Of a DNA stretch of 64,000 bases, positions 39,984 through 60,336 are shown in pieces (within the stretch, counting starts at the first letter, position 1; the number at the start of each line of letters is the position of its first letter). This DNA comes from Salarchaeum japonicum (GTDB taxonomy: Archaea; Halobacteriota; Halobacteria; Halobacteriales; Halobacteriaceae). The translations under genes and the position numbers were made by a program. The stretch covers positions 62,001-126,000 of the forward strand of contig NZ_CP085325.1 in assembly GCF_020614395.1 (NCBI RefSeq), written 5' to 3'. The notes beneath the pieces are model-generated. The model saw only the letters and a program-made list of their open reading frames with translations, searched no databases and had not been told where the DNA came from.

Positions 39984-40201
39984 ACTAGAAAGAAACCCGT
40001 CTAACGGTATAAACCTAGTGCTGGCGCAGCAATGTAGCCCATCAGAGGAAGCGTCTGTGTATACCGAACTATGCACCCTTCGGGAAAACTGTGGAATCGG
40101 TGACTGCATAGCGATACCCACCGAAATTACGCAGTGTCGCCATTTGCTGTCCACCAACCGGACTCAATTGAATGAAACCCTCCGAAGCGATCGGGAGCGT
40201 T

Positions 40202-42484
<2,283 letters not shown>

Positions 42485-42630
42485 GAGTCATGTTCTCTAT
42501 TGAGGTGGTTCCGCCGGCTTCTTGAATCTTCGGCCCTGAGACCGTACAGCAGGACCAGCGTAGACGAGCTCCGAAGACAACAGTTAGTCGTCGTCTCGAA
42601 GCGACTTGTGCTATCCGCAGCGCACGATAC

Positions 42631-42828
42631 TCAGGCGTGAGCGGTGTATCCCGCGTCTTCGACGGCCGCCACGAGGGCCGTGACCTCTGCCTCACCGTCG
42701 ACACTTGCCTGTTCACTCTCCCTGTCGACGGTCACGGAAGTCACGCCAGTGACCTCTTCAAGGGCCTCTTCAACCGTCTGCTCGCAGTGACCGCACGACA
42801 TTCCTTCCACGGTGATGGTCGTCGTCAT
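42631..42828 (-). CDS. copZ: CopZ-like copper chaperone (HMA domain), copy 1
   Basis: A 65-residue protein: MTTTITVEGMSCGHCEQTVEE and on. The copper site is GMSCGHC, with the Cys pair at 11 and 14; the whole is a single ferredoxin-like HMA fold. I chose the ATG at 42828 (MTTTITV), since the start at 42840 adds MYLC and no ribosome site. CopZ hands Cu(I) to CopA-type pumps. It lies upstream of copB in the same direction, so the two are probably co-expressed. Confidence 0.93.
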   Translation of the reverse strand: MTTTITVEGMSCGHCEQTVEEALEEVTGVTSVTVDRESEQASVDGEAEVTALVAAVEDAGYTAHA

Positions 42829-42898
42829 ACAGAGGTACATACGGCTCCCTCCCTTTAGCGGATTTCCCCTTCGATTATGCTGGTCTCTTGGGGGTCAA

Positions 42899-42911
42899 AC
42901 TTTAGATTCCA
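42899..42911. promoter_or_regulatory. TTGGAATCTAA-like element upstream of copZ
   Basis: On the minus strand CTTGGAATCTAAAG lies about 71-83 bases before the copZ start. It differs by one base from TTTGGAATCCAAA found upstream of copA (49035-49047) and resembles TTAGAATCCAA at 48346-48356. Confidence 0.45.
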
Positions 42912-42973
42912 AGTGATACGTGCAGCCGAAACGAACCAAATTTCAGATTCAGCAACTGACGATGCGGGAAGAC

Positions 42974-43369
42974 TCAGGTACCGTTGTGGCGCTCCAGATA
43001 CGTCTTCGCCGCTAAAAAGACGTATAGTGCGCCGATAGCCCGAATACCCGAGCGGAATCGCTCGTTCCATTCGACCGACTCCGGACGCTCGTACAGGAAC
43101 GCGGTGGCAAATCTTCGATACAGATCGGGAAACAGGAAGACGATAGCGCCGAACACACCGGTAAGATTCATCAGCCACGCGTATGCTCGCCCATTGAGGA
43201 GGGAAATCGCAGCTATCAGAACGCCCTCAGACCGGATAGCTGGGCGGACCCACCCTCTCACTGTTCCCCCGCTTCGATTCGCAATCGCAAGTTTCTCGAA
43301 GAGACTGACGATTTTGTCCGGGAACAGCGCTGAGAGAGCGCCAAGGACACCCACGAGTGTTCGAATCAT
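42974..43369 (-). CDS. Small membrane protein of unknown role
   Basis: A 131-residue protein starting MIRTLVGVLGALSALFPDKI, with four predicted helices (about 3-19, 44-62, 67-83 and 108-122). An in-frame ATG at 43396 would add SVPVVQYR; the longer frame to 44020 is mostly the other strand of a real gene and is not coding. FPDKIVSLFEKLAI and FPDLYRRFATAFLY suggest an internal repeat. It is on the same strand as copZ and copB, 145 bases before copZ. Confidence 0.6.
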   Translation of the reverse strand: MIRTLVGVLGALSALFPDKIVSLFEKLAIANRSGGTVRGWVRPAIRSEGVLIAAISLLNGRAYAWLMNLTGVFGAIVFLFPDLYRRFATAFLYERPESVEWNERFRSGIRAIGALYVFLAAKTYLERHNGT

Positions 43370-43506
43370 ACGATACTGTACGACCGGTACGGACATAATT
43401 CCCGCTGCGACCCTACACTGGTGAGAATAAGGGGAATCCGAACAATAGCGACTTCGAATGAGGAACAACGCCCAGAGGCCGCTTCTCGAATGAACGTCCC
43501 GAATCC

Positions 43507-43782
43507 TCAGGGGTTCGGGGCATACAGGGCGTAGAGAATCGATAGCATCCCGGCGGCGGTGATGAGTGCTGCGACGAATCCTGCTTCGAAAATCGACACT
43601 TGGAGGAGTTCGAAGAGCACGCCCTCGAGGAGGCCGCCGAGCCCGACCAGCGCGAAGCCAGCCGCGACGTACAGGAGTAACTGCGTGTGATGCCGTTGGT
43701 ATCCGCGATAGGCCTGGTAGGCGATCACCAGCGCCAGGGCGGTCGTGAACAGCTTGCCGATGACGAATAACGTGTGTTCCAT
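43507..43782 (-). CDS. Small three-helix membrane protein paired with regulator (copy B)
   Basis: A 91-residue protein with helices at about 6-22, 36-58 and 68-86 and YRGYQRHHTQ in the loop (two His). It is a paralogue of the protein at 25734. It lies 3 bases after the stop of the winged-helix gene and is co-transcribed with it. See finding on regulator and membrane-protein couples. Confidence 0.8.
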   Translation of the reverse strand: MEHTLFVIGKLFTTALALVIAYQAYRGYQRHHTQLLLYVAAGFALVGLGGLLEGVLFELLQVSIFEAGFVAALITAAGMLSILYALYAPNP

Positions 43783-43785
43783 GAG

Positions 43786-44136
43786 TCAGTCTCCCCGCAT
43801 TTCCTCGAAGATGGACGTAATCCGGTCGGCGGGGTCCGGCCGAACATCGATCTGCACGTCGAAGCCCTCTGCTTGGAGGAGTACTTCGACACGCTCGAGT
43901 CGCGCCTCGTACTCGCTGTAGTGCCGTCCGCCGGGGTCGACGTGCGTGTACTCCTCGAGGAGGCCCTGCTCGACGAGGCGGGTGACACGCCGCGAGACGG
44001 TCGGGCGTGACATATCGCATTCCTCGCTGAGCTCCTTCGCGGAGAGTCGGTCGGTCTTCGTCGCCACGAGGATGTTGCGGGCGTACTCGTCGTCGAGTGT
44101 GGCGAAGATGTCCGACGGGTCGGCCTCCTCAGTCAC
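43786..44136 (-). CDS. Winged-helix regulator paired with small membrane protein (copy B)
   Basis: A 116-residue ArsR-like regulator. DIFATLDDEYARNILVATKT with ELSEECDMSRPTVSRRVTRL is the winged helix, and HVDPGGRHYSEYEARLERVE the wing. The tail DVRPDPADRITSIFEEMRG is acidic. It is a distant relative of the gene at 26009, and the layout and gene order are alike. The divergent DoxX gene starts 115 bases away, with the intervening region likely to hold operators for both. Confidence 0.82.
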   Translation of the reverse strand: MTEEADPSDIFATLDDEYARNILVATKTDRLSAKELSEECDMSRPTVSRRVTRLVEQGLLEEYTHVDPGGRHYSEYEARLERVEVLLQAEGFDVQIDVRPDPADRITSIFEEMRGD

Positions 44137-44250
44137 ACGTCCGTACTCGCTACAGGAGGGTAATATAGCCCGCCGGTTTTCTGACTCAGAACGCCGGCTC
44201 GCTATTATATCGTCTCTACCCGCCTACTGATAGTTGAAGGTGCAATAATT

Positions 44251-44811
44251 ATGTCCACACTCGACTCCGGCATGAACCAGCTTGAGAGCAGAGTCGGCGG
44301 CCTGACCGTCGGCGGGAAAGTCCACAGCCTCAGCGCGTGGTTCGTGCTGGCGCTCCGTCTCATGATGGGCTACGCGTTCGCGTACTCCGGCTTCACGAAG
44401 ATCACCGGCGAGTTCGCGGCCGGCGGCTACCTCTCGAACGTTGCGGCGACGAACGGCAACCCGCTGGCGGGCCTGTTCGCGTGGATGGGTTCGACGCCGT
44501 GGTTTGTCGAGTTCGCGAACGTCGCCGTGCCGTACGGCGAGCTGTTCATCGGCCTCGGCCTCCTCGTCGGCGCGTTCGTCCGCCTCGCGGCGTTCTTCGG
44601 CGCGCTGATGATGCTCATGTTCTACTTCGGCAACTGGGACATGGGTCACGGGTTCATCAACGGGGACTTCGCGTACATGCTCGTGTTCCTCGCGGTCGCC
44701 GCGTTCGCCGCGGGCCGCATCCTGGGCCTCGACCAGTACATCGAGAACTACGACGTCGGCGGCGAGACGCTCGTCGAGCGCTACCCCGCCCTCGAATACA
44801 TCCTCGGCTAA
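44251..44811 (+). CDS. DoxX-family membrane protein (copy 1)
   Basis: A 186-residue protein with four helices. LRLMMGYAFAYSGFTKITG is the DoxX head (G-x-x-F-x-x-x-G-x-x-K), and PYGELFIGLGLLVGAF with RLAAFFGALMMLMFYFGNWD the central pattern. DoxX/DoxD proteins are small subunits of thiosulfate:quinone oxidoreductase or general quinol-linked membrane proteins. The family here stands divergent from the winged-helix gene, whose target it may be. The SHOCT protein follows after 28 bases. Compare the paralogue at 54492. Confidence 0.88.
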   Translation: MSTLDSGMNQLESRVGGLTVGGKVHSLSAWFVLALRLMMGYAFAYSGFTKITGEFAAGGYLSNVAATNGNPLAGLFAWMGSTPWFVEFANVAVPYGELFIGLGLLVGAFVRLAAFFGALMMLMFYFGNWDMGHGFINGDFAYMLVFLAVAAFAAGRILGLDQYIENYDVGGETLVERYPALEYILG

Positions 44812-44839
44812 CCACGCCGAGACCTTTGGGAGTACAACA

Positions 44840-45238
44840 ATGCAAAATCCAATTCAAGCACGCGGGATTCGTTCTCTGGGACTCATCGTCGTTGGGGCAC
44901 TGACTCTGGCCGTCGTCGCCGGAATGGCGCTAACACACGCGACCGTCCCAGAATCAATGATGTGGAGCTGGCACGACGGCATGTGGAACAGCGGCCACAT
45001 GGCCGGCTGGGGTGGCTGGGGCTGGGGGATGATACTGTTCGGGCTCCTGTGGATGGCACTTCTGATCGCCCTCCCAGTCTACGCCGTTTACTGGCTGACA
45101 ACGCGGTCCCCTACGGACGGCCATACTGATGACAGCGCACTCGCTGTTCTCCAAGAACGGTACGCTCGTGGCGAAATCGACGACGAGGAGTTTGATCACC
45201 GTCGCGCCCGCCTGGTGTCCGACGACGATCGTTTCTGA
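44840..45238 (+). CDS. Membrane protein with Met/His/Trp-rich loop and SHOCT domain
   Basis: A 132-residue protein with two helices (about 14-34 and 62-84). The loop between them, MMWSWHDGMWNSGHMAGW then GGWGWGM, is rich in Met, His and Trp, as in soft-metal binding proteins. The C-terminal 30 residues (LAVLQERYARGEIDDEEFDH) form a SHOCT domain. It resembles the proteins at 61455 and 62337. It is co-directional with DoxX and 12 bases before the convergent aconitase stop. Confidence 0.85.
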   Translation: MQNPIQARGIRSLGLIVVGALTLAVVAGMALTHATVPESMMWSWHDGMWNSGHMAGWGGWGWGMILFGLLWMALLIALPVYAVYWLTTRSPTDGHTDDSALAVLQERYARGEIDDEEFDHRRARLVSDDDRF

Positions 45239-45249
45239 CCGCGTTGGTG

Positions 45250-48033
45250 TTACTGTCTGAGGAGGCGTCTGAGGACGTAGTGGAGGATTCCGCCGTGTTC
45301 GATATAGGTTACGGCGGCCGGCGTGCCGACCTGTGCTGTGACCGGGAACTCGACAGTCGACCCGTCCGCACGCTCGGCGATAACGGTCAGTTCGTCCATC
45401 ACGTCGAGCCCGTCATCGAGGCCGTGGATCGTGAAGACCTCCGACCCATCCAGACCGAGAGATTCCCACGAGTCGCCATCATCGAACTGCAGGGGAAGCA
45501 CACCCATGCCGACGAGGTTGTCGCGGTAGATGCGCTCGTAACTCTCGGCGATGGTTGCGCGGACACCGAGCAGGTCCGTTCCTTTCGCCGCCCAGTCCCG
45601 GCTAGACCCAGTTCCGAACTCCTCGCCAGCCATCACGACGAGCGGTATCCCCTCGTCCCGATAGCGGCGACTGGCTTCGAACACCGTGGTTTGTTCGTCG
45701 GTCGGGTGGTGGATCGTGTAGCCACCCTCGACGTCGTCGAGCATCTCGTTCTCGATTCGGACGTTGGCGAACGTCCCCCGCATCATCACCTCGTGATTGC
45801 CCCGACGTGCGCCGTAGGTGTTGAACTCGTGTGGCTCGACACCGTGATCGAGCAGCCACTGACCTGCGGGGAGGTCGGGACCGAACGGGCCGGCTGGACT
45901 GATGTGGTCGGTCGTAACGGTATCGCCGAGCGTCAGTAGACAGCGTGCGTCCTCGATATCGGCGACGCCGGGTTTCTCTACCGGGAAGTCCTTGAAGAAC
46001 GGCGGTTCACGGATGTATGTCGAGTCCTCATCCCACTCGTAGACGTCACCCGTGGGCGCGTCGAGAGCAGCCCATCGCTCATCGCCCTCGAACACGGAGG
46101 CGTACTTCTCCTCGAACATCTCCGGAGAGACGTTCTCGTGGATTGCGGCCTGCACGTCCGCTGCGTCCGGCCAGATGTCCGCCAGATAGACTGGGTTACC
46201 CTCATCGTCAGTGCCCAGCGGCTCGTGTTCGAGATCGATGTCCATCCGCCCTGCGAGCCCGTAGGCGACGACGAGCGGCGGGCTCGCGAGGTAGTTCGCG
46301 CGGATCTTCGGGTGGATACGCGCCTCGAAGTTCCGGTTCCCGGAGAGAACGCTCGTCGTCCAGAGGTCGTGGTCGTCGATTGCCTGCTCGATGGGATCGG
46401 GAAGCGGCCCAGCGTTACCGATACAGGTGGTACAGCCGTAGCCGACGACGGCGTACCCGAGCTCTTCGAGATACGGAAGCAGCCCCGATTCTTCGAGATA
46501 CTGCGTGACGACACGGCTACCCGGTGCGAGACTCGTCTTGACGTACGGCGGGACGTCTAGGCCTTTCTCGACGGCGTTCTGGGCGAGCAGTCCAGCAGCG
46601 ATCATCACCGACGGGTTCGACGTGTTCGTACAGCTCGTGATGGCGCTGACGAGGACGTCTCCGTGTCCGATTTCGACCGTCTCACCGTCGAGGTCGACCT
46701 CGACACGTTTGGTTAACGGGTGCAGTTCCGATTCGGGTTCGACCTGAACGCCACCGTCGGTCTCCGCATCAGCTGCACCACCCTCACCGAGCCACCGCTG
46801 CAAGGCGTCCTCGTCGACATCATCGAGGTCGTCCTCGAACTCCCCGTGGAGAAGTCCCCGGAAGCTCTGTTTCACGTCCCCCATCGGAATCCGGTCCTGT
46901 GGCCGCTTGTGTCCGGCCAGACTCGGTTCGACTGTCGAGAGGTCGAACTCGACGACCTCAGTATATTCTGGTTCCTGTTCCCCGAACAGCCCTTGGGCTT
47001 CGAGGTACTCGCGAACGAGGTCGACGTGGTCGGGATCACGCCCGGTGAGTTCGAGATACTCGAGCGTCTGCTCGTCGACCGGGAACATACTGATCGTCGA
47101 GCCCTGTTCGGGCGCCATATTGGCGATCGTGGCCCGGTCGGGGACTGTGAGATTCTCCACACCGGGACCGAAGAACTCCACGAACCGGTCGACGACGCCG
47201 ACCTCGCGGAGTCGTTCGGTGATGTGGAGCACGAGATCCGTAGCCGTCGCGCCCTCGGGTAATTCGCCTTCGAGACGGACGCCGACGACCTCGGGGAGTT
47301 TCATCGTGACCGGTTGACCGAGCATCGCCGCTTCCGCTTCGATGCCGCCGACGCCCCAACCGACCACACCGATGCCACCGATCATCGGGGTGTGGCTGTC
47401 CGTGCCGACGAGCGTGTCCGGCAGGAGCCAGTTCTCGCCGTCTTGCTCGCGGGCGTGGACGACCCGACCCAGATGTTCGAGATTCACCTGGTGGACGATA
47501 CCGGTCCCCGGCGGGACGACGTTGAAGTTCTCGAAGGCGTTCTGCGCCCACTTGATCGCGCGATACCGTTCGGCGTTTCGCTCGTACTCCAGTTCGACGT
47601 TCTTCTCGTAGGCGTCCTCGGAGTCGAAGTAGTCGACCTGGACGCTGTGGTCGATCACGAGATCAATAGGAATCTCCGGTTCGACCAGGGTGGGATCTCG
47701 GTCTTTGCGGTCGACCTCGGATCGAAGGGCCGCCAGGTCGACGACTGCGGGTACACCGGTGAGATCTTGCAGGACGACTCGTGATGGAGAGAACGGAACC
47801 TCTGCGTCCGGTACGTCTGGCTTCCAGCCAGCAGCATTCTTGACATCCGCTGCAGTAACAGTTTCGCCGTCGGCGTTCCGGAGCACCGACTCAAGCAGAA
47901 TACGGATGCTCACAGGGAGCGTGTCGAGGTCACAGAGCCCCTGCTCTTCGAGTGCTCGAAGATCGGCCATCTTGTACGTCGTCCCGTCGACGTCGAGCTC
48001 GCGGACGGCATCGAACGGAAGTGTATCAGTCAT
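45250..48033 (-). CDS. acnA: Aconitate hydratase A
   Basis: A 927-residue AcnA/IRP1-type aconitase. The [4Fe-4S] Cys set is visible: SAITSCTNTSNPSVM (about 475-482) and GYGCTTCIGNAGPLP (two Cys, about 545-548). Also VGTDSHTPMIGGIGVVGWG, SRVVLQDLTGVPAVVDLA and the C-terminal swivel domain with GEEFGTGSSRDWAAKGT and RATIAESYERIYRDN. It turns citrate to isocitrate in the TCA cycle. I chose the ATG at 48033 (MTDTLPFD). Its Fe-S cluster is a known target of copper stress. The enclosing copper genes make it a spare or hardened enzyme, or a metal sensor; both are inference. Confidence 0.95.
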   Translation of the reverse strand: MTDTLPFDAVRELDVDGTTYKMADLRALEEQGLCDLDTLPVSIRILLESVLRNADGETVTAADVKNAAGWKPDVPDAEVPFSPSRVVLQDLTGVPAVVDLAALRSEVDRKDRDPTLVEPEIPIDLVIDHSVQVDYFDSEDAYEKNVELEYERNAERYRAIKWAQNAFENFNVVPPGTGIVHQVNLEHLGRVVHAREQDGENWLLPDTLVGTDSHTPMIGGIGVVGWGVGGIEAEAAMLGQPVTMKLPEVVGVRLEGELPEGATATDLVLHITERLREVGVVDRFVEFFGPGVENLTVPDRATIANMAPEQGSTISMFPVDEQTLEYLELTGRDPDHVDLVREYLEAQGLFGEQEPEYTEVVEFDLSTVEPSLAGHKRPQDRIPMGDVKQSFRGLLHGEFEDDLDDVDEDALQRWLGEGGAADAETDGGVQVEPESELHPLTKRVEVDLDGETVEIGHGDVLVSAITSCTNTSNPSVMIAAGLLAQNAVEKGLDVPPYVKTSLAPGSRVVTQYLEESGLLPYLEELGYAVVGYGCTTCIGNAGPLPDPIEQAIDDHDLWTTSVLSGNRNFEARIHPKIRANYLASPPLVVAYGLAGRMDIDLEHEPLGTDDEGNPVYLADIWPDAADVQAAIHENVSPEMFEEKYASVFEGDERWAALDAPTGDVYEWDEDSTYIREPPFFKDFPVEKPGVADIEDARCLLTLGDTVTTDHISPAGPFGPDLPAGQWLLDHGVEPHEFNTYGARRGNHEVMMRGTFANVRIENEMLDDVEGGYTIHHPTDEQTTVFEASRRYRDEGIPLVVMAGEEFGTGSSRDWAAKGTDLLGVRATIAESYERIYRDNLVGMGVLPLQFDDGDSWESLGLDGSEVFTIHGLDDGLDVMDELTVIAERADGSTVEFPVTAQVGTPAAVTYIEHGGILHYVLRRLLRQ

Positions 48034-48104
48034 AGTATCTACACCTGGGATTGGCAGTCGTATCAATCCCTCTCCGAATCCGATTCGACGAGAATCGGGA
48101 TTTG

Positions 48105-48302
48105 TTACGCAGAGGCATCGTATCCAGCGTCTTCGACCACAGTCACAAGCTCATCCCGTTCAGCGGACCCCTCGACCGTCGCGGATTCTGAGTCACGATC
48201 CGCAGTAGCGGACGTAACCCCCTCAACTTCTTCGAGTGCCTCTTCGACGGTCTGCTCGCAATGTTCACAGGTCATTCCTTCGACGGTGATTGTCTGAGTC
48301 AT
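48105..48302 (-). CDS. copZ: CopZ-like copper chaperone (HMA domain), copy 2
   Basis: A 65-residue HMA protein, MTQTITVEGMTCEHCEQTVE and on, with the copper site GMTCEHC at about 9-15. It is about 80 percent like the copy at 42631, with GH to EH in the site. I chose the Met at 48302; the residues MD before it add nothing. It is divergent to the TRASH regulator (48437), so the 134-base gap serves both and holds TTAGAATCCAA. Confidence 0.93.
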   Translation of the reverse strand: MTQTITVEGMTCEHCEQTVEEALEEVEGVTSATADRDSESATVEGSAERDELVTVVEDAGYDASA

Positions 48303-48345
48303 ATCCATTCGTAGATAGGGGCGAGTATTCTATGTGGTTTTCTGC

Positions 48346-48356
48346 TTAGAATCCAA
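48346..48356. promoter_or_regulatory. TTAGAATCCAA element between copZ and regulator
   Basis: A near-palindrome of the same type as TTTGGAATCCAAA upstream of copA. It lies 44-54 bases before the copZ start and about 80 before the regulator start. GTTG-TGGG-CAAC, a perfect 4-bp inverted repeat, lies at about 48395-48406 in the same gap. Confidence 0.45.
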
Positions 48357-48436
48357 TGTTGTCGCAGCCCTAGATCACCGATTTCGAAGGTGTGTTGTGG
48401 GCAACAATAATGTATCCTGCGAGACGAAGCGGTCGT

Positions 48437-49027
48437 ATGCGCGATTTGGATGAAACCGACTTAGAAATCCTCTCGTTACTCGCTGATGACGCCCGCCGCC
48501 CGTTCAGCGATATTGGCGAGGAGGTCGACTTGTCGGGGCCAGCCGTTTCTGACCGGGTAAAGCGATTACAGGAAGCTGGCATCATTAACAACTTCACGAT
48601 TGACGTCAACCGGGCTCATCTCCGAGCTGGTGTACCGGTATTTATTCAGGCCGAAATCGGCTCAGCGTCGTTGGAGGCCGCCCGCGAGCGGGCTCGAGAG
48701 TCAGATGGCGTTGAACACGTCTTCACGACCTCCGAAGGAGATCTTTGGTTCTATGCCCGTGTTGAAGCCCAGAACGTACGTCAGTGGGTAGATGGACTCT
48801 TTAACGAGATCGATGTAGCAGATTACACCGTCACACTAATTGACGAGCTTGAATGGACGCCGTCCGTTGATGGCGTCGAATTTGCACTCACCTGTGCTGA
48901 ATGTAACAATACCGTTGATAATCAAGGTGAAACGACGAGAATCGACGGAGAGATCTATCACTTCTGTTGTCCGTCCTGTCTCACACGGTTCGACGATCGG
49001 TATCAGCGACTCGAAGAGGGAGCGTAA
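48437..49027 (+). CDS. Lrp/AsnC-type regulator with C-terminal TRASH domain (copy 1)
   Basis: A 196-residue regulator. The Lrp-type HTH (about 1-50) has LDETDLEILSLLADDARRPF and LSGPAVSDRVKRLQEAG. A regulatory alpha-beta domain follows, and residues about 148-190 form a TRASH domain, FALTCAECNNTVDNQ with YHFCCPSCLTRFDDRY. TRASH Cys residues bind copper or other soft metals. This is the copper sensor type described in archaea (CopR/CopT relatives). I chose the ATG at 48437 since a TATA-like CAATAATG lies about 27 bases upstream. Neighbours are copZ (divergent) and copA (same strand), the likely targets. Confidence 0.9.
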   Translation: MRDLDETDLEILSLLADDARRPFSDIGEEVDLSGPAVSDRVKRLQEAGIINNFTIDVNRAHLRAGVPVFIQAEIGSASLEAARERARESDGVEHVFTTSEGDLWFYARVEAQNVRQWVDGLFNEIDVADYTVTLIDELEWTPSVDGVEFALTCAECNNTVDNQGETTRIDGEIYHFCCPSCLTRFDDRYQRLEEGA

Positions 49028-49034
49028 CGCTGTC

Positions 49035-49047
49035 TTTGGAATCCAAA
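49035..49047. promoter_or_regulatory. Perfect palindrome TTTGGAATCCAAA upstream of copA
   Basis: A 13-base perfect palindrome 75-87 bases before the copA start and right after the TRASH regulator stop codon. Near-copies occur by both copZ genes (48346 and 42899). It is the best candidate operator of the TRASH regulator here. Confidence 0.55.
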
Positions 49048-49121
49048 TTTTCCTGCAGTCGAAACCCCGCCTCTCGAAGCAGTAAATCGCCTAAACCTAG
49101 ACCCCGTATAGTAGAACAAGC

Positions 49122-51728
49122 ATGACAAGCCAAACAATCCATCTTGATATCACGGGAATGTCCTGCGCCAGCTGTTCGGCGACGATCCAGGACACTCTCG
49201 AATCGCTCGACGGGGTATCGGAGGCGGATGCGAACTTCGCCACCGACGAGGGTTCCGTCACCTACGACCCTGAAGAGGTATCGCTCAAAGAAATCTACGA
49301 CGCGATCGACGAGGCCGGGTACGGCGCAGTCTCTGAGACGGTAACGATTGCCATCTCCGATATGACCTGTGCCAACTGCGCCGAGACCAACCAAACCGCT
49401 CTTGAAAATATTCCGGGCGTCGTTAATGCGGAGGTCAATTACGCAACCGACGAAGCACAGGTCACCTACAATCCTGCGGAAGTATCTATTGGTGCGCTGT
49501 ACGATGCTATCGAGGAGGCTGGCTACTCGCCCGTCCGCGAAGATGGTGCCGACGAAGAGTCGGGCCAGGACGCACGAGATGCCGCCCGTCAAGCCGAAAC
49601 TCGGAAACAACTCAGGTTGACCCTCTTTGGGGCAGTGTTATCGGCACCGTTGCTCTTCTTCCTCATCGACAATTATCTGCTCGGTGGCGCGATCGTCCCT
49701 GAAGCCGTCTTCGGTGTGGAACTTGGCTGGGTTGAGTTCCTCCTCGCCACGCCGGTACAGGCGATCCTCGGCTGGCCGTTCTATAAGAACTCGTACAAGG
49801 CGATCGTGAAGAACGGCCGCGCCAATATGGACGTGCTGATTGCGATCGGTTCAACAACGGCCTATCTATACTCTGTGGCAGTCCTTGCTGAACTCATTGC
49901 AGGTGGACTTTATTTCGACACGGCAGCCCTCATCCTCGTGTTCATCACGTTGGGTAACTATCTCGAAGCTCGGTCGAAGGGCCAAGCGGGTGAGGCCCTC
50001 CGAAAGCTCCTCGAAATGGAAGCCGAAACGGCGACCATTGTCCGCGAGGACGGCAGTGAAGAAGAAGTTCCGCTTGAAGAGGTCACAACTGGTGACCGGA
50101 TGAAAATCCGTCCAGGTGAGAAGATTCCCACAGACGGTGTCGTTGTCGACGGTCAGTCTGCCGTCGACGAGTCAATGGTCACTGGCGAATCTGTGCCTGT
50201 CGAGAAAGAGGAGGGCGATGAGGTCGTCGGCTCGACGATTAACGAGAACGGCGTCCTTGTCGTGGAGGCGACGAAGGTTGGAGAAGACACGGCCCTCCAA
50301 CAGATCGTCCAGACAGTCAAGGAGGCCCAGTCGCGCCAGCCCGACATCCAGAATCTCGCCGACCGCATCTCCGCGTACTTCGTGCCTGCGGTCATCGCGA
50401 ACGCCCTTCTCTGGGGTGTCGTCTGGTTCCTGTTCCCCGAGGCGCTCGCTGGCTTCGTCGACTGGCTCCCGCTGTGGGGTCAGGTTGCTGGCGGCCCGGC
50501 CCCGGTCGGTGGGACCGTTTCAGTCTTCGAGTTCGCGATAATTGTCTTCGCGTCCTCGATCCTCATCGCCTGTCCCTGTGCGCTGGGGCTGGCGACGCCC
50601 GCAGCGACGATGGTCGGGACGACGATTGGTGCCCAGAACGGCGTCCTGTTCAAGGGCGGTGACATCCTCGAACGCGCAAAAGACGTCGACACGGTCGTCT
50701 TCGACAAGACGGGCACCCTCACGGAGGGTGAAATGGAACTCACCGACGTGGTCGTCTTTGATAGCGATGGAAATGTGGTGACTGACGGTGGCGAGCCGAC
50801 CCCAGATGGTGGACAGCTCAGCACCCGTGAGCGCCTCTCAGAGGATGATGTGCTTCGACTGGCGGCGATAGCTGAAAGCGGCAGCGAACACCCGCTCGCC
50901 CGTGCAATCGTCGAAGGGGCCGAAGAACGCGGCCTGGACGTGACTGAGCCTGACGACTTCGAGAACGTTCCGGGCCACGGGATCAAAGCAGTCATTGGTG
51001 ACAGCGAGGTGCTGGTCGGCAACCGCAAGCTGCTGCGGGACAACGGGATCGACCCCTCTCCCGCTGAGGAGACGATGGAACGCCTCGAGAACGAGGGGAA
51101 GACGGCGATGCTGGTCGCCTACGAGGGGGAGCTCGTGGGTGTGGTCGCCGACGCCGACACAGTGAAGGAAAGCTCCAAGCAGGCTGTCACAGCACTCCAG
51201 GAGCGGGGAGTTGACGTGATGATGATTACGGGCGACAACGAGCGAACTGCCCGTGCGGTCGCTAAACAGGTGGGTATCGACCCGAAGAACGTCCGCGCAG
51301 GAGTCCTTCCTGAGGACAAGTCCAACGCGGTCGACAGTATTCAAGACGAGGGCCGGCAGGCGATGATGGTCGGTGACGGCGTCAACGACGCTCCGGCACT
51401 CGCGGTCGCACACGTCGGGACAGCAATCGGCTCCGGCACCGACGTCGCCATCGAAGCTGCAGACGTCACGCTGATGCGAGACGACCCGCTCGACGTGGTA
51501 AAGGCGATCCGAATCTCAGACGCGACACTCCAGAAGATCAAACAGAACCTCGTGTGGGCGCTCGGTTACAACACGGCGATGATTCCGTTAGCGTCGCTCG
51601 GCCTCCTCCAGCCCGTGCTCGCTGCAGCAGCAATGGCGTTCTCGTCGGTGTCGGTGCTGACGAACAGTCTCCTGTTCCGGCGGTACACCCCCGATCACGA
51701 CTACAAGCTCTTCGGATTTCTTCGCTAA
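49122..51728 (+). CDS. copA: CopA-type copper P1B-1 ATPase with two HMA domains
   Basis: An 868-residue pump. Two HMA domains: [12 protein letters not shown] (Cys 15 and 18) and [12 protein letters not shown] (Cys about 84 and 87). Eight helices follow. The ion motif is [14 protein letters not shown] at about 484-486, and DKTGTLTEG at about 528. [14 protein letters not shown] (about 704) and [10 protein letters not shown] (about 750) are normal. The last helices have [14 protein letters not shown]. This class exports Cu(I) taken from CopZ. Loop of about 30 residues after DKTGT ([18 protein letters not shown]) is an insertion. The promoter region has an operator palindrome. It starts 95 bases after the TRASH regulator. 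Confidence 0.96.
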
Positions 51729-51745
51729 CCGTCACCTCTAGATCA

Positions 51746-51970
51746 ATGTCGAATATTTCCCGGCACACGGTTCGAAGGTACCTCGTCGAGACAGCCAGTA
51801 GCGAACCGACATACCTCCGGGCTCGCGAGATTGCCAGCGACCTCGACGGATCTCCCAAGGCAGTCGCGCAGTATCTCAGCCAGCTCCAGGACGAACTCAC
51901 AATCGTTTCACTCGAACAGTGGGGGCGCTCGAAAAGCACGACGTGGCGATTGGAGGTGAACGGGTCGTGA
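51746..51970 (+). CDS. Small winged-helix protein
   Basis: A 74-residue protein. RHTVRRYLVETASSEPTYLR followed by AREIASDLDGSPKAVAQYLS is a winged helix, and WGRSKSTTWRLEVNG the wing. The type is frequent in haloarchaea next to DUF63 genes. It starts 18 bases after the copA stop and its stop codon overlaps the DUF63 start (GTGA). It could regulate or only travel with the copper operon. Confidence 0.8.
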   Translation: MSNISRHTVRRYLVETASSEPTYLRAREIASDLDGSPKAVAQYLSQLQDELTIVSLEQWGRSKSTTWRLEVNGS

Positions 51971-52968
51971 GTACTGTCACCCGCCGCGTCGAGACTGTCC
52001 TTCCGGAGACCGGCTCACGCGAGTGGTGGGCGCTGTACCTGCTGGCCCCGCTCGTCCTCCTCGGTGGGGGCATCCTCGTGTTTCCGACGTTGGTCTACGA
52101 CCGGTTCATCTGGCAGTATCTCTGGGGACCAGTCGTCGCCGATGCGGCCGGTCAGCCAGTCACGCACGAGGGGGTTCGTGCTGTCCAGGGCTACAACGCG
52201 GTGAACACGGTAATCTACCTCGCGGCAGTCGTATACAGCCTCCCCGGACTACGTGCGTATCTCGACCAACTCGACGTCACGTTCGACGCACGACTGGCCT
52301 ACGGGTTCGCTCCGATCATCATCGCAGGTGGGGCGATGCGCGCCCTCGAGGATCTCGGGCTGCTCGGGGACTACGCGGTGTGGTTCATCACGCCATCGAT
52401 TTACATCGTCGTCACCGCTGTCACCATCCTCGCGCTCGGTGTCGGTGCACTCTTGCGTGACCAAAATATCGGATCTATCCCGCTAACAGTCGGGCTCGTC
52501 GGGTCGGTGTGGGCTGTCGGGGCCGTCTGGTGGGCTGTTTGGCACGGCCTCTCGACATCGACCCCACTCCGCCTATGGGTTCCTGTCGCGACGACGGGGA
52601 TAGCGCTCGGCGTAACCGCACTCTACTACTGGGGCGCGAGTTTCGTCAATATCACACACCTTCGACACCCGCTAATTCTGCTGGCCGTTTTCGGCCAGTT
52701 GTGGGACGCTGCGCAGAATCTCATCGGTGTGACGTTCCTCGGCTACTCCCCAAAGCTGGTCGTGACGAATCTCGTGTACCAGGCGACTGGATTCTCCGGA
52801 TCGACGTTCGTGCTGAAACTCGTCGTGACTGTCGGCATCGTGTGGTATCTCGCCGATGCGAAAGAGGAGATGAATCACACGTGGTGGTGGCTTATGACGT
52901 TCTTCATCGGAGCGATCGGACTCCCGATGGGCGTTCGTGGGTCACTTCGGATGCTGTTGGGAGCTTAA
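51967..52968 (+). CDS. DUF63-family membrane protein
   Basis: A 333-residue protein with about nine helices. DRFIWQYLWGPVVADAAGQP, VQGYNAVNTVIYLAAVVYSL and PIIIAGGAMRALEDLGLLGD are typical of archaeal DUF63 proteins. The start is GTG at 51967, overlapping the stop codon of the small winged-helix gene by 4 bases (GTGA). The family has no proven role. It may be a general membrane gene transferred with the copper set. Confidence 0.85.
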   Translation: MSTVTRRVETVLPETGSREWWALYLLAPLVLLGGGILVFPTLVYDRFIWQYLWGPVVADAAGQPVTHEGVRAVQGYNAVNTVIYLAAVVYSLPGLRAYLDQLDVTFDARLAYGFAPIIIAGGAMRALEDLGLLGDYAVWFITPSIYIVVTAVTILALGVGALLRDQNIGSIPLTVGLVGSVWAVGAVWWAVWHGLSTSTPLRLWVPVATTGIALGVTALYYWGASFVNITHLRHPLILLAVFGQLWDAAQNLIGVTFLGYSPKLVVTNLVYQATGFSGSTFVLKLVVTVGIVWYLADAKEEMNHTWWWLMTFFIGAIGLPMGVRGSLRMLLGA

Positions 52969-52996
52969 CGATGGCCTCAAAGATTGGCAAAAACCG

Positions 52997-54172
52997 ATGA
53001 CACGAACGTCCAAAATTGCGGTAATAGGTGGAGGGATGGCCGGGCTTGCAGCAGCTGCTGGATTCGACGACGCTGGATTCGTCGTCGAACTATATGAGCG
53101 GCAGTCCTACGATAGCAAACGCGTTAATTGCGGAGAAGCGATGACAGCGGTATCGAAGATCCCACTCGAGCCGACTGTAGAGAACGGCTTTCTCAATCCG
53201 CTGCCAGCGATGGAAGTGGAGGTGTATGACGGAATCGACGCCGATCGCCACCGCACTGGAGCCGGCACCTTTCCTGCTGCGGATACATATATAACGGACC
53301 GAAATGTCGTTGAGCAGTCCTGGGCAGAACAACTCTCAGAGAAGGGTGTTGACATCCACGAAAACCAGTCTATCACACGGACAGATTTCCACGAGTTCAC
53401 CGATGAGTATGATCTCGTCGTTGATGCAACCGGTCAGCCATCACTCTCTAGTAAAGCGCTCGGAACAACCAACGAGTATTCAGGATATATGGTAGCGCTT
53501 AACAGTGATGTCGAAGGGGACTTCACCGAGTTGTACCCGAACAGCCGGATAATTCTGGAGAACTATACAGGGTACTCGTGGGCATTCCCGAAGACATCGC
53601 AACGAGCCAACGTTGGTATCGGCTGGACGGTCAGTGACCGGCCTAGTGATTATATGAAGGCATTGAGGGAAGCCTGTAAGCGGAATGGGTGGCCAGTCCC
53701 GTCGCAGGAACGGACGAACGTCGCAATCATTCCCGAGGGACCCAGTCTCGATCCCGACAGAACCTATCTACCGGAGCATTCCGTCGTACGGGTTGGTGAT
53801 GCTGCAGGTATCGCAAACCGACTCACTGGAAAAGGGATTTCACAGGCCGTTGAATCGGGATTCTTGGCCGCAGAGTTGGCTAACAGCGGCCAATTACACA
53901 ATTTTCCTGACAGTTTATATCAGAGGATGAAAACGGAGTACATTTTCGCCACAGTTGTGAGATACTTTCTTGAAACTCGTAATCCCAAGGTTCTGGGAGC
54001 AGCAATTCGTGCCGCTGCCGGGATCGATATTGAAGACGTTGACCGGTCTCCGAGTACAGTTCTACTGCGTCTCCTCCGCCACCCTGTTTTGTTTGCCCGT
54101 ATTTTCTCGAGACGACGAGTTTTAAACCGTGTCTATGGAGGAATGACTAACCAATGGGAGTTGATTAATTGA
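52997..54172 (+). CDS. FAD-dependent oxidoreductase, geranylgeranyl-reductase-like
   Basis: A 391-residue flavoprotein. IAVIGGGMAGLAAAAGFDDA is the N-terminal FAD-binding fold (G-G-G-x-A-G). YERQSYDSKRVNCGEAMTAV with the Cys near 36 and SVVRVGDAAGIANRLTGKGI (G-D-A-A-G) at about 265 are features of geranylgeranyl reductases, which saturate lipid chains. The FAD and NADPH binding regions are complete. The start at 52997 is preferred since the earlier frame reads DUF63 DNA. Codon use and base composition of 53.0-54.2 kb are more AT-rich than the copper core, which could mean later transfer. Confidence 0.85.
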   Translation: MTRTSKIAVIGGGMAGLAAAAGFDDAGFVVELYERQSYDSKRVNCGEAMTAVSKIPLEPTVENGFLNPLPAMEVEVYDGIDADRHRTGAGTFPAADTYITDRNVVEQSWAEQLSEKGVDIHENQSITRTDFHEFTDEYDLVVDATGQPSLSSKALGTTNEYSGYMVALNSDVEGDFTELYPNSRIILENYTGYSWAFPKTSQRANVGIGWTVSDRPSDYMKALREACKRNGWPVPSQERTNVAIIPEGPSLDPDRTYLPEHSVVRVGDAAGIANRLTGKGISQAVESGFLAAELANSGQLHNFPDSLYQRMKTEYIFATVVRYFLETRNPKVLGAAIRAAAGIDIEDVDRSPSTVLLRLLRHPVLFARIFSRRRVLNRVYGGMTNQWELIN

Positions 54173-54491
54173 CATCCGCTCGAGTTAAATTCTCAGAATC
54201 TGTTAGCTACTGGGAGGATCGGTAAGTACAGAGGATTAAATCAGCAAATGGAGTCCCTCAAGCGAATTTTCCGAGATCCAGAATTCGGTGGGCTCGGCTT
54301 CATCAGTGTTCCCGCTTACACGCCCCAGCACACAATCAGTCCGTAGAGGGTGACCGAATTCCTTCTTGAGAATCATCCAACTCACCTCGGATATCCGCGT
54401 TCCTGAAATGAGCCCCGACTCTTAGAAATCACGAACACCATCAATCTTTTTTACTACATCTGACAAAATCAGCCGTGAGGTGAAGTATGCC
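54173..54491. other. 318-base gap; possible 32-residue ORF only
   Basis: No clear gene. An ATG at 54248 opens MESLKRIFRDPEFGGLGFIS then VPAYTPQHTISP and a stop at 54344-54346. The sequence could be a gene remnant, as its start is protein-like and the end is not. There is a ribosome site GAGGTGA at 54477-54483 for the next gene. Confidence 0.5.
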
Positions 54492-55025
54492 ATGTCAACT
54501 CAATCCATCCGTACGAATTTTCTCGGAACCGAGACGTCGTTCTCGGTCTCGGGAGCCTGGTTGTCGTATTGGATCCTGCTGCTCCGGCTGACCGCCGGGT
54601 GGTGGATGCTCCACGCTGGCCTTGACAAAATCTGGGCGTGGCCCTTCGACGCCAGCTGGTTCGTCGGCGGAGCCGCTCAGGGCACGATTCTCGCCCCCTT
54701 CGTCACGCCGTTCAGCGACGGCATCCTGTTGGCGTTCGTCAACGTGGCGGTACCGCTTGGGCAAACCGCCATCGGTCTCGGGCTGATACTCGGTGTCCTC
54801 ACGAGGACCGCCGCCTTCTTTGGTGCCTTCATGATGCTGTTCTTCTACTTCATCAACGGCTACGGTGGCGGCTGGGCCAACGGTATGGTCACGGGTGAAC
54901 TCCTTGGGATCATGGTCTTCGGAACCATTGTGGCACTTGGAGCGGGCGGCGTCCTGGCAGTCGATAACCGCCTGCGTGAGATGGAACTGTTCGAGAACAC
55001 GCGATTACGGAAACTCCTCGGGTGA
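54492..55025 (+). CDS. DoxX/DoxD-family membrane protein (copy 2)
   Basis: A 177-residue protein with four helices. LLRLTAGWWMLHAGLDKIW is the DoxX head, VPLGQTAIGLGLILGVLTRT the centre, and FFGAFMMLFFYFINGYGGG the third helix. I chose the ATG at 54492 because GAGGTGA lies 8 bases upstream; a GTG at 54480 is possible but has no space for a ribosome site. The DoxX here is only loosely similar to that at 44251, with KLLG at the end in place of YILG. A small membrane protein follows 6 bases on. Confidence 0.88.
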   Translation: MSTQSIRTNFLGTETSFSVSGAWLSYWILLLRLTAGWWMLHAGLDKIWAWPFDASWFVGGAAQGTILAPFVTPFSDGILLAFVNVAVPLGQTAIGLGLILGVLTRTAAFFGAFMMLFFYFINGYGGGWANGMVTGELLGIMVFGTIVALGAGGVLAVDNRLREMELFENTRLRKLLG

Positions 55026-56191: not shown

Positions 56192-56417
56192 AGGTTTAGA
56201 ATTGGTTCAGACTCCAGTATTTATATAGGACACAGATAGGAATCCGTTGGTATACTCGAACGATAGTTCGGGATTGTGAGGTACTAACCGTTGATTGTGG
56301 AGTCAGAAAAGCCAAACCGTGCAGCACGGCTCAAATCGCTATGTATCCCGACTTTGGATTGCTAAGAACAAATTGCTTGATTCAGGCCCTCGTACCATTG
56401 ATGTGGGGTGAAACCGA

Positions 56418-56640: not shown

Positions 56641-57234
56641 ATGACCCAACCAGAACTTGACGACACGGATCGCGAAATCCTCCGTCTTTTAGCGGAGAAC
56701 GCGAGACGACCCTACAGCACTATTGCTGAGGCTGTAAATCTTTCACCCCCGTCCGTTTCAGCACGCGTCCGTCAGTTGGAGCAAGATGATGTCATTCGTC
56801 GATTCACCGTTGATCTCGACCTCACACAGTACGAAAACCGGATACACGTCATGGTACGCCTCCAGCCTGAGCTCGGAAAGACAGATTCACTTCGAGAATC
56901 GATCCTCAAGGCCCCATACGTAGAACACGTATTCACAACTGCTGAGGGCGAGATCGTGGTTGTTGCGACACCGCCGCGGACTACGGTCGGAAACTGGGTG
57001 CAGCACAGTCTACCACTGAGTGACGTGCGACGATACGACGTGCAACTGCTGTCAAGCGCCACCCGTTCAGCCTATGCCAACGGTACTGAATCCGTACTTA
57101 CGTGCGCACACTGTGGAACCACTATCAGCGAAGACGGAATAGCTACCCGCGTTGGTGGATCACTCCAGCAGTTCTGTTGCAAAGACTGCGAGACCGCGTT
57201 CAAAGGAGAGCACGAGAATCCTCAAGAAAAGTAG
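56641..57234 (+). CDS. Lrp/AsnC-type regulator with TRASH domain (copy 2)
   Basis: A 197-residue regulator. LDDTDREILRLLAENARRPY and LSPPSVSARVRQLEQDDV form the HTH. The C-terminal 45 residues (SVLTCAHCGTTISEDG and QFCCKDCETAFKGEH) are a TRASH domain with four Cys. It is a clear paralogue of 48437, with differing recognition helix (PPSVSARV in place of GPAVSDRV). The start ATG at 56641 is right after a C-rich segment; the upstream frame to 56341 is YHS DNA in another phase. Its targets may be the YHS, MaoC and ABC genes. Confidence 0.9.
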   Translation: MTQPELDDTDREILRLLAENARRPYSTIAEAVNLSPPSVSARVRQLEQDDVIRRFTVDLDLTQYENRIHVMVRLQPELGKTDSLRESILKAPYVEHVFTTAEGEIVVVATPPRTTVGNWVQHSLPLSDVRRYDVQLLSSATRSAYANGTESVLTCAHCGTTISEDGIATRVGGSLQQFCCKDCETAFKGEHENPQEK

Positions 57235-57885: not shown

Positions 57886-58125
57886 ATCCGGCAGGGCTGT
57901 CGTGTTGACCACGACGAGATTCCCGAGACCGTCGTATGACATCTGTTGTAGACCAACTCGGAGGCCCATCTAATCAGAAGGGGTATTCGATTCGATAAGT
58001 CCGAAAACTCGGCCATCACAGAATAGTGCGGAGGAAATACTACTATTCAGGGTCGCGTTGACAGTGTCGTTTTGGATTTGAAAGAGTAATCGGAGTGAAT
58101 TAGGAGCGTGTACATGTAGCTGACA

Positions 58126-58857
58126 ATGGGATCATCCACAACTACTACGCCAGAAGGGAACAGTAGTGAGGTACTCGTTCGTGCTGAGGGAGTCGAAAAA
58201 ACGTACGGGTCAAGACTCCCATTCACACGATCTGTGACCGTCTTGACCGGTGCCGATCTCGAAATTCGGACGGGGGAAATCGTCGGGATCGTCGGCGCGA
58301 ACGGGTCGGGCAAATCCACGCTCATGAACATCCTCGTCGGTGTCCTCGAACAGGATTCCGGAACAGTCGAACGGACGGGAACCGTTGGCTGGTGTCCACA
58401 GGAACCACTGCTTTACGACCGCTTGACGGTCGGAGAGACGTTCCGACTGTTCGGTTCCGGATACGGAATGACCGCCGAAGAAATCGACGAGGCCAAACAC
58501 CGCTTGGCGTCGAAACTCGATTTCGAGCAGTACCTTGACTACCGAATCGACCAACTCAGTGGTGGAAACCGGCAGAAAATCAATCTCAGTATCGCCCTGA
58601 TGCACGATCCGGACGTCCTCATGCTGGACGAGCCCTACACTGGATTCGACTGGGAAACGTATCTCACGTTCTGGGATCTCGCTGAGGAACTCGCTGCCGA
58701 CGGAACAGCTGTCACGATGATTTCACACCTGATCGAAGAGCAAAGTCGTCTCGACCGCATCTATGAGGTTCGTGACGGACAGGTCTACGACGTGACTGAC
58801 CAGGAAGGCGAGACTGATGCAACGGCCAGTGAACGGGGGGAAGAGACCGATGAATAG
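58126..58857 (+). CDS. ABC transporter ATP-binding protein
   Basis: A 243-residue ATPase. Walker A is GANGSGKSTLMN (about 57-64), the signature LSGGNRQKINLS (about 144), Walker B DVLMLDEPYTGFD (about 164) and the H-loop TMISHLIEEQ. The subset with two permeases next to it resembles drug, lipid or NosFY-type copper exporters. It overlaps the first permease gene by 8 bases. Confidence 0.95.
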   Translation: MGSSTTTTPEGNSSEVLVRAEGVEKTYGSRLPFTRSVTVLTGADLEIRTGEIVGIVGANGSGKSTLMNILVGVLEQDSGTVERTGTVGWCPQEPLLYDRLTVGETFRLFGSGYGMTAEEIDEAKHRLASKLDFEQYLDYRIDQLSGGNRQKINLSIALMHDPDVLMLDEPYTGFDWETYLTFWDLAEELAADGTAVTMISHLIEEQSRLDRIYEVRDGQVYDVTDQEGETDATASERGEETDE

Positions 58858-59587
58858 GGTTTGGACGGGGATTCGGGCGAACGTCTCCACCTTCCTCAGA
58901 ACCCCCCTGAATGTTGTCCTAGCACTTCTCCTTCCGATTGTCGTTATCGAAGGCTGGGGACAAGCAATGGCTGGGTTACCAAGTATGCCGACGGTCGAGG
59001 CGATTCCGATCGAGCTAGGTCGCCTTCTCGGAGCGATATTCGGGGTCGCCATCATTGCCGGCCTGATGGGACTCGCGCAGATGATTAGTGCGCGTGCAGC
59101 CGATCGGCGACTCGTTCAGACAGGCTATCCACCCCGAACACTGCTTGCGACTCGATTAGCGGCGCTCGGAGGAGTGACCGTTGTCGTGGCTGCCGTGAAC
59201 TACGGCGTTCTCTGGCTGACGATTTCACCGGAAGCCCCTGTCCTGACGTTCGTATTCCTCGTCCTCGCCGGCCTCGTCTATGCGTTTCTTGGCGCACTCG
59301 TCGGGGCGCTCCTTCCGCGACTGTTCGAAGGCTCGCTCGTCGTGGTGTTCCTCGCGATGATGGACGCGTTCCTCAGTGGCGACAGCCCGCTGGCTGCTGA
59401 CATTCCTGAGTTCGTGGAATACTTCCCGCTCTATCATCCGAAGGAACTCCTTCAGGAGGCGATGTTCCAAGGTACATATACGACGGGCGACCTCGGCTTC
59501 GTTGCCGGATACCTGCTCGTCTTGCTCGTGCTCGTCACCGTAGTGTTCGGAGTGACGATGCGCACCAGTGGTGGGTGGTCCGCATGA
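58850..59587 (+). CDS. ABC-2 type permease subunit 1
   Basis: A 245-residue membrane protein with six helices. It opens MNRVWTGIRANVSTFLRTPL, the cytoplasmic coupling head of ABC-2 permeases, and has ATRLAALGGVTVVVAAVNYG and GALVGALLPRLFEGSLVVVF. The start at 58850 overlaps the ATPase gene (ATG inside the last codons). The end overlaps the second permease (ATGA). Confidence 0.9.
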   Translation: MNRVWTGIRANVSTFLRTPLNVVLALLLPIVVIEGWGQAMAGLPSMPTVEAIPIELGRLLGAIFGVAIIAGLMGLAQMISARAADRRLVQTGYPPRTLLATRLAALGGVTVVVAAVNYGVLWLTISPEAPVLTFVFLVLAGLVYAFLGALVGALLPRLFEGSLVVVFLAMMDAFLSGDSPLAADIPEFVEYFPLYHPKELLQEAMFQGTYTTGDLGFVAGYLLVLLVLVTVVFGVTMRTSGGWSA

Positions 59588-60336
59588 ACCGTACGACAAC
59601 GGCGTTCTCGATCGGCATCAAAGAACAGGCGCGTAACTACGTCCTCGTCGCTCTACTGGTCGTCCTACCGGTCTCGTTCATCACGTTGGCGTTCGCAGTC
59701 ACCCAGGACGTCGAGATGCCGGTTCGGACGCTCGTCGACGGTGAGACGGCGACGGTCATGCGGGGGATGCCTGAGGTCCACGGCGTGATCATGACGCCGA
59801 TTACGAGTGCTCTCATCGCCGGACTCGCCGGGTTGTTCCTGATGCGAGAAGCCAAAGACACGGACGGTCGTCTGGCAGTCGCTGGCTATCGTGCATGGCA
59901 GGTAATCGCTGCCCGGTTTGGGGTTCTCGCAGCAATTACTCTCATCGTCACCGGTGTCTCAGTTGGTGTGATGCTCGTCGATTTCCAGCCCGAGTATCTC
60001 TGGTGGTTCGTCGCAGCGATGCTCGTCGTCTCGGTCACGTATGGTCTCATCGGGATGCTCGTCGGGGCCGTCTTCAACCGCCTAGCCGGGATGTGGCTGA
60101 TGCTGATTCTCCCGATGCTCGATATCGGACTGTTTCAGGATCCGCTGTTTATTCAATCTGAACCTGATTGGTGGATGAAACTCTTTCCGGGCTATTGGCC
60201 AGTCCGTGTAATGGTCGATACCGGACTCACAACCGACGTAGATACGGCTCTCTCGTTGGTGTGGGCTACTGGATATCTTCTCCTCGTAGCCGTGCTCGCA
60301 ATTGGTGTTTACTACCGAGCCACACAGGCGAGTTGA
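59584..60336 (+). CDS. ABC-2 type permease subunit 2
   Basis: A 250-residue paralogue with six helices. It opens MNRTTTAFSIGIKEQARNYV and has RFGVLAAITLIVTGVSVGVM and GMLVGAVFNRLAGMWLMLIL. With subunit 1 it forms a heterodimeric exporter. The start at 59584 overlaps the first gene's stop codon. The substrate is unknown; position after a YHS-MaoC gene and before copper proteins points to a metal-linked lipid or a copper-related substrate. Confidence 0.9.
   Translation: MNRTTTAFSIGIKEQARNYVLVALLVVLPVSFITLAFAVTQDVEMPVRTLVDGETATVMRGMPEVHGVIMTPITSALIAGLAGLFLMREAKDTDGRLAVAGYRAWQVIAARFGVLAAITLIVTGVSVGVMLVDFQPEYLWWFVAAMLVVSVTYGLIGMLVGAVFNRLAGMWLMLILPMLDIGLFQDPLFIQSEPDWWMKLFPGYWPVRVMVDTGLTTDVDTALSLVWATGYLLLVAVLAIGVYYRATQAS

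Follow-up and report, generated by a model that had tools for sequence, protein, structure and literature searches.

A short palindrome recurs beside the copper genes of Salarchaeum japonicum in the 64,000-nucleotide plasmid stretch analyzed here (the window), and the question is whether it serves as an operator and, if so, for which regulator. The initial annotation had placed it at copA and at both copZ genes and had proposed the TRASH regulator encoded at 48437 as its binder. The genes concerned are as follows (window coordinates):

40202–42484, minus strand: copB-like copper P1B ATPase with a His-rich N-terminus, downstream of copZ1 (TIGR01511, 617 bits)
42631–42828, minus strand: copZ1, HMA copper chaperone (NCBIfam CopZ)
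45250–48036, minus strand: acnA, aconitase, 68 bp downstream of copZ2 (NCBIfam AcnA)
48105–48302, minus strand: copZ2, HMA copper chaperone (PF00403; start as annotated in the Halobacterium hubeiense copy)
48437–49027, plus strand: regulator of the CopR/VNG1179C type, with an AsnC-type HTH and a TRASH domain (PF13404 and PF24273 above cut-off)
49122–51728, plus strand: copA, copper-type P1B ATPase with two HMA domains

The surrounding 14.5-kb copper block (40000–54500) is 94–99% identical on plasmids of five haloarchaea (H. hubeiense, Haloarcula marismortui, Halobellus limi, Halorubrum trapanicum, and Natrinema versiforme). Such identity across haloarchaeal families points to recent transfer.

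The regulator belongs to a widespread family. Relatives at E ≤ 1e-20 were found in 291 of 292 haloarchaeal genomes, and the single genome in which the search returned no relative gave no CopA match either, an empty answer of little weight. The five TRASH cysteines (C153, C156, C177, C178, C181) are invariant in 89 relatives, and the recognition helix, PAVSDRV, is nearly invariant in 89 regulators. The linkage of the 48437 gene to copA and copZ was found both in the window and in relatives.

The three palindromes lie exactly where the initial annotation had put them:

42900–42914, no strand assigned: putative copZ1-copB operator, ACTTGGAATCTAAAG on the minus strand (core TTGGAATCTAA, 42912–42902, minus), centered at 42907, 79 bp before the copZ1 ATG at 42828
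48344–48358, no strand assigned: putative copZ2/regulator intergenic operator, GCTTAGAATCCAATG (core TTAGAATCCAA, 48346–48356), centered at 48351, 49 bp from the copZ2 ATG (48302) and 86 bp from the regulator ATG
49034–49048, no strand assigned: putative copA operator, CTTTGGAATCCAAAT (core TTTGGAATCCAAA, 49035–49047), centered at 49041, 81 bp before the ATG

Genome-wide counts were obtained by pattern searches (exact, one-mismatch, and degenerate). The exact pattern TTRGAWTCYAA occurs at four places in the 2,339,281-base genome, three of which are the copA, copZ2/regulator, and copZ1 sites, while its reversed control gave no match in the whole genome. The fourth copy (C1:827198) lies inside a predicted 86-aa ORF with no visible copper link. 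The scan had been set beforehand as the check on whether the motif is frequent at random places, and it is not. With one mismatch, 17 places were found, and with TTNGAWTCNAA, 16; the additional hits were scored against the matrix described below. Two chromosomal TTCGAATCGAA palindromes (C1:809045 and C1:866999) reached operator-matrix scores of 11.9 and 13.3. Allowing two mismatches at most, TTGGAATCCAA matched 18 times in the window, against 10.9 expected, and 6 of 100 shuffles reached 18; this enrichment is weak, and the window-wide mismatch scan is too weak to judge the palindrome by itself.

Conservation was followed in the gaps between regulator and copA, extracted from loci whose regulators are 53–100% identical; near-identical gaps were collapsed, leaving 41 non-redundant promoters. 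An unconstrained de novo search from random starts in these copA promoters recovered this palindrome in a longer form of about 15 bp (CTTTSGAWTCSAAAG). Scores of at least 10 (natural log units) were reached by 37 of the 41, against 0.2% of dinucleotide shuffles, a comparison that favors the matrix because it was trained on the copA set. Fairer tests were provided by the copZ/regulator gaps, where 24 of 33 relatives scored at least 10 (0.2% of dinucleotide shuffles), and by an out-of-sample matrix built solely from promoters with regulators below 80% identity. By this matrix, the best site in the window is 49041 (16.0), followed by 42907 (12.8). The site at 48351 scored 7.7 (rank 7), which is marginal if taken alone; it is backed, however, by where it lies and by its conservation in relatives.

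The spacing is equally regular. The center of the palindrome lies 77–81 bp before the copA start in all 73 named loci, a set that overlaps the 41 promoters, and the arrangement of motif, regulator, and copper genes stays constant even where the regulators are only about 53% identical. In Halobacteriaceae, a copA without an adjacent regulator gene is still preceded by the palindrome. Sequence, rarity, conservation, spacing, and co-occurrence with the regulator family and the copper genes are thus matters of direct observation, and by comparison they support the operator reading of the initial annotation. The palindrome is very probably the operator of a haloarchaeal AsnC/Lrp-TRASH copper sensor, most likely the 48437 product.

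The identity of the binder is complicated by paralogy, as three family members are encoded in the genome: the 48437 product, a chromosomal regulator (C1:1640644, 46% identical), and a further one in the window (56641–57234, 39%). The chromosomal regulator sits in a second cop locus. A different operator had been expected for the chromosomal paralogue clade, an idea that was dropped when the same palindrome turned out to be used there. It is kept where regulators are only 45–55% identical, and in the 52–56% clade it stands at copA and, in many cases, 51 bp ahead of the clade's own regulator gene. The palindrome is therefore common to the whole family and not provably private to the 48437 product.

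A copper operator bound mainly by one of the two paralogues, or shared by all three, is accordingly worth considering, and the identical palindrome in the identical place in the 52–56% clade speaks for it, as does the presence of three family members. We nevertheless regard it as rather unlikely: in relatives, the sites at copA and copZ are accompanied by the 48437 gene, and the chromosomal cop locus of S. japonicum itself keeps only weak sites at its copZ and copA promoters (scores of 7.1 and 6.0, the latter being CCTTGGTTTCCACGG, 77 bp before copA). The operator is that of a regulator family, so that its plasmid-borne and chromosomal members may cross-talk. The third regulator gene lies behind a small ORF with a YHS domain (56419), and an operator-like site (56350–56368, score 10.0) is located 60 bp upstream of that ORF.

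Each window palindrome is accompanied by a TCGAAG half-site that starts exactly 33 bp from its center; a TATA-like box follows at copA:

42869–42874, minus strand: half-site TCGAAG of copZ1, 33 bp from center 42907
48384–48389, plus strand: half-site TCGAAG toward the regulator gene, 33 bp from center 48351
49074–49079, plus strand: half-site TCGAAG of copA, starting 33 bp from the operator center
49090–49097, plus strand: presumed weak TATA-like box of copA, CCTAAACC, in register with the operator

Among 39 relatives, the TCNAA half-site at copA starts at +33 in 17 and at +32 in 5, with any other offset seen at most four times. The second site is placed 30–32 bp from the first; it is a full palindrome in several copZ/regulator gaps and a TCNAA half-site at copA. 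Three turns of B-DNA amount to 31.5 bp. With the two sites about three turns apart, both dimers would face the same side of the DNA, an arrangement that fits Lrp-type octamers. The conserved core promoter letters keep a steadier distance to the operator than to the copA ATG. The ATG follows the CCTAAACC box by about 27 bp, which suggests a leaderless copA transcript.

Being in register with the core promoter, the palindrome might be taken for a general haloarchaeal upstream promoter element, or for the site of an unrelated regulator. This is very unlikely, since the palindrome is rare in the genome, accompanies copA and the regulator family throughout, and is absent upstream of two other heavy-metal ATPase genes in the window (the Zn/Cd-like one at 19928 and that at 34514–37042). 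Two further readings are hardly credible: that the palindrome forms a terminator or RNA hairpin behind the regulator gene, whose stop codon it follows by 8 bp at 49035, and that it is conserved only through recent transfer of the 94–99% identical block. Other copies precede copZ1 or lie in a gap between divergent genes, copA genes lacking an upstream regulator have the palindrome as well, and it is kept at 53–70% regulator identity in gaps that have otherwise diverged.

For the copper-sensor operator, the following mechanism can be proposed. One regulator dimer would bind CTTTSGAWTCSAAAG; a second dimer, facing the same side of the helix, would occupy the half-site, which is separated from it by three helical turns (31–32 bp). 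At copA, copZ1, and the regulator start, the palindrome is the distal site (79–86 bp from the ATG); for copA and copZ1, it is the half-site that adjoins the presumed BRE/TATA. The proximal position at copZ2 is taken by the palindrome itself (49 bp). We infer that the 48437 protein binds these sites with copper as the signal, and that it activates rather than represses: with copper bound to its TRASH cysteines, the regulator would switch on these promoters, whose TATA box is poor. By analogy with VNG1179C and Pyrococcus furiosus CopR, both described below, activation of poor-TATA promoters (CCTAAACC at copA) by the copper-bound regulator is the most likely mode. Because the regulator's own promoter has the same palindrome and half-site, autoregulation is likely.

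The operators in the window face copZ1-copB, copZ2 (and perhaps acnA), copA, and the regulator itself. Neither the copB-like gene nor acnA has an operator site of its own in the window. Expression of acnA by read-through from the copZ2 promoter is possible, the two genes being presumably co-transcribed. An own copper operator for acnA had been suspected and was rejected, as diverged acnA genes have no site upstream; likewise, no operator was found in the upstream regions of plasmid-borne second aconitases. The aconitase gene is plasmid-borne and lies between two copZ genes, and many haloarchaeal plasmids carry a second aconitase, in several cases no more than a few kb from cop genes. Since copper damages exposed Fe-S clusters, a spare copy of the enzyme would be plausible.

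One further site in the window is a candidate member of the same regulon:

58068–58086, no strand assigned: candidate site (score 10.1) upstream of an ABC transporter operon (58126–60336), at a distance of 49 bp

This ABC-2 transporter operon is followed by a plastocyanin-like gene. On two Haloferacaceae plasmids, 74%-identical homologues have a site scoring 12.5 at 45 bp before the start. On two plasmids, a thioredoxin-family gene has operator-like sites 45 and 76 bp upstream, exactly 31 bp apart. Near copper genes, operator-like sites also precede hypothetical genes and one for an APC permease, at 45–46 bp (three loci) or 81 bp (one locus).

Related systems have been described. In Halobacterium salinarum, VNG1179C (Lrp family plus TRASH) regulates yvgX and two metallochaperones (PMC3551603, PMC3600143). 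It shares with the present regulator the domain plan, the targets (a copper P1B ATPase and HMA chaperones), and the class of archaea (PMC3551603, PMC3600143), the difference being that the regulator gene here adjoins its targets and lies on a plasmid. The VNG1179C binding motif is published solely as a ChIP-chip figure (PMC4236453), and it may be the same as the operator found here. Apart from that figure, no haloarchaeal operator sequence and no paired geometry were found in searchable literature text.

CopR of Pyrococcus furiosus, a dual regulator that activates copA and forms an octamer, has a palindromic binding site immediately upstream of the BRE (PMC7830388). The likeness lies in the Lrp-type HTH, the TRASH domain, and the palindromic site upstream of BRE/TATA (PMC7830388). 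Its motif, TTNNCAWWWTGNNAA, is directly upstream of the BRE, whereas the full palindrome here, CTTTSGAWTCSAAAG, is often one three-turn step further upstream; compared by eye, the present consensus does not follow TTNNCAWWWTGNNAA. For one CopR relative, that of Thermococcus onnurineus, a repressor role is reported (PMC7830388), which counts against the activation reading. CopR/CopT of Saccharolobus solfataricus is reported as an activator, as cited in PMC7830388 and PMC3600143. Its cop cluster also groups a TRASH-domain regulator, a chaperone, and a copper ATPase; this regulator is more distant, and the likeness drawn here is one of gene content.

Whether all these sites obey one haloarchaeal copper-regulon code is, in our judgment, evenly poised. 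Such a code would place CTTTSGAWTCSAAAG about 45–49 and/or 77–81 bp before the start, 31–32 bp apart, would be read by several co-resident paralogous TRASH regulators, and would extend to the ABC-2 transporter (beside the plastocyanin-like gene) and the thioredoxin-family gene.

Copper control by TRASH regulators is already known in archaea. The kind of regulator and the kinds of target are thus familiar; the operator sequence is newly described, and the palindrome is a good but unsurprising candidate for binding assays. With the site defined and its geometry fixed, the regulon could be listed from sequence alone, the meeting point of regulator and core promoter would become visible, and cross-talk between the copper sensors of plasmid and chromosome could be tested directly.
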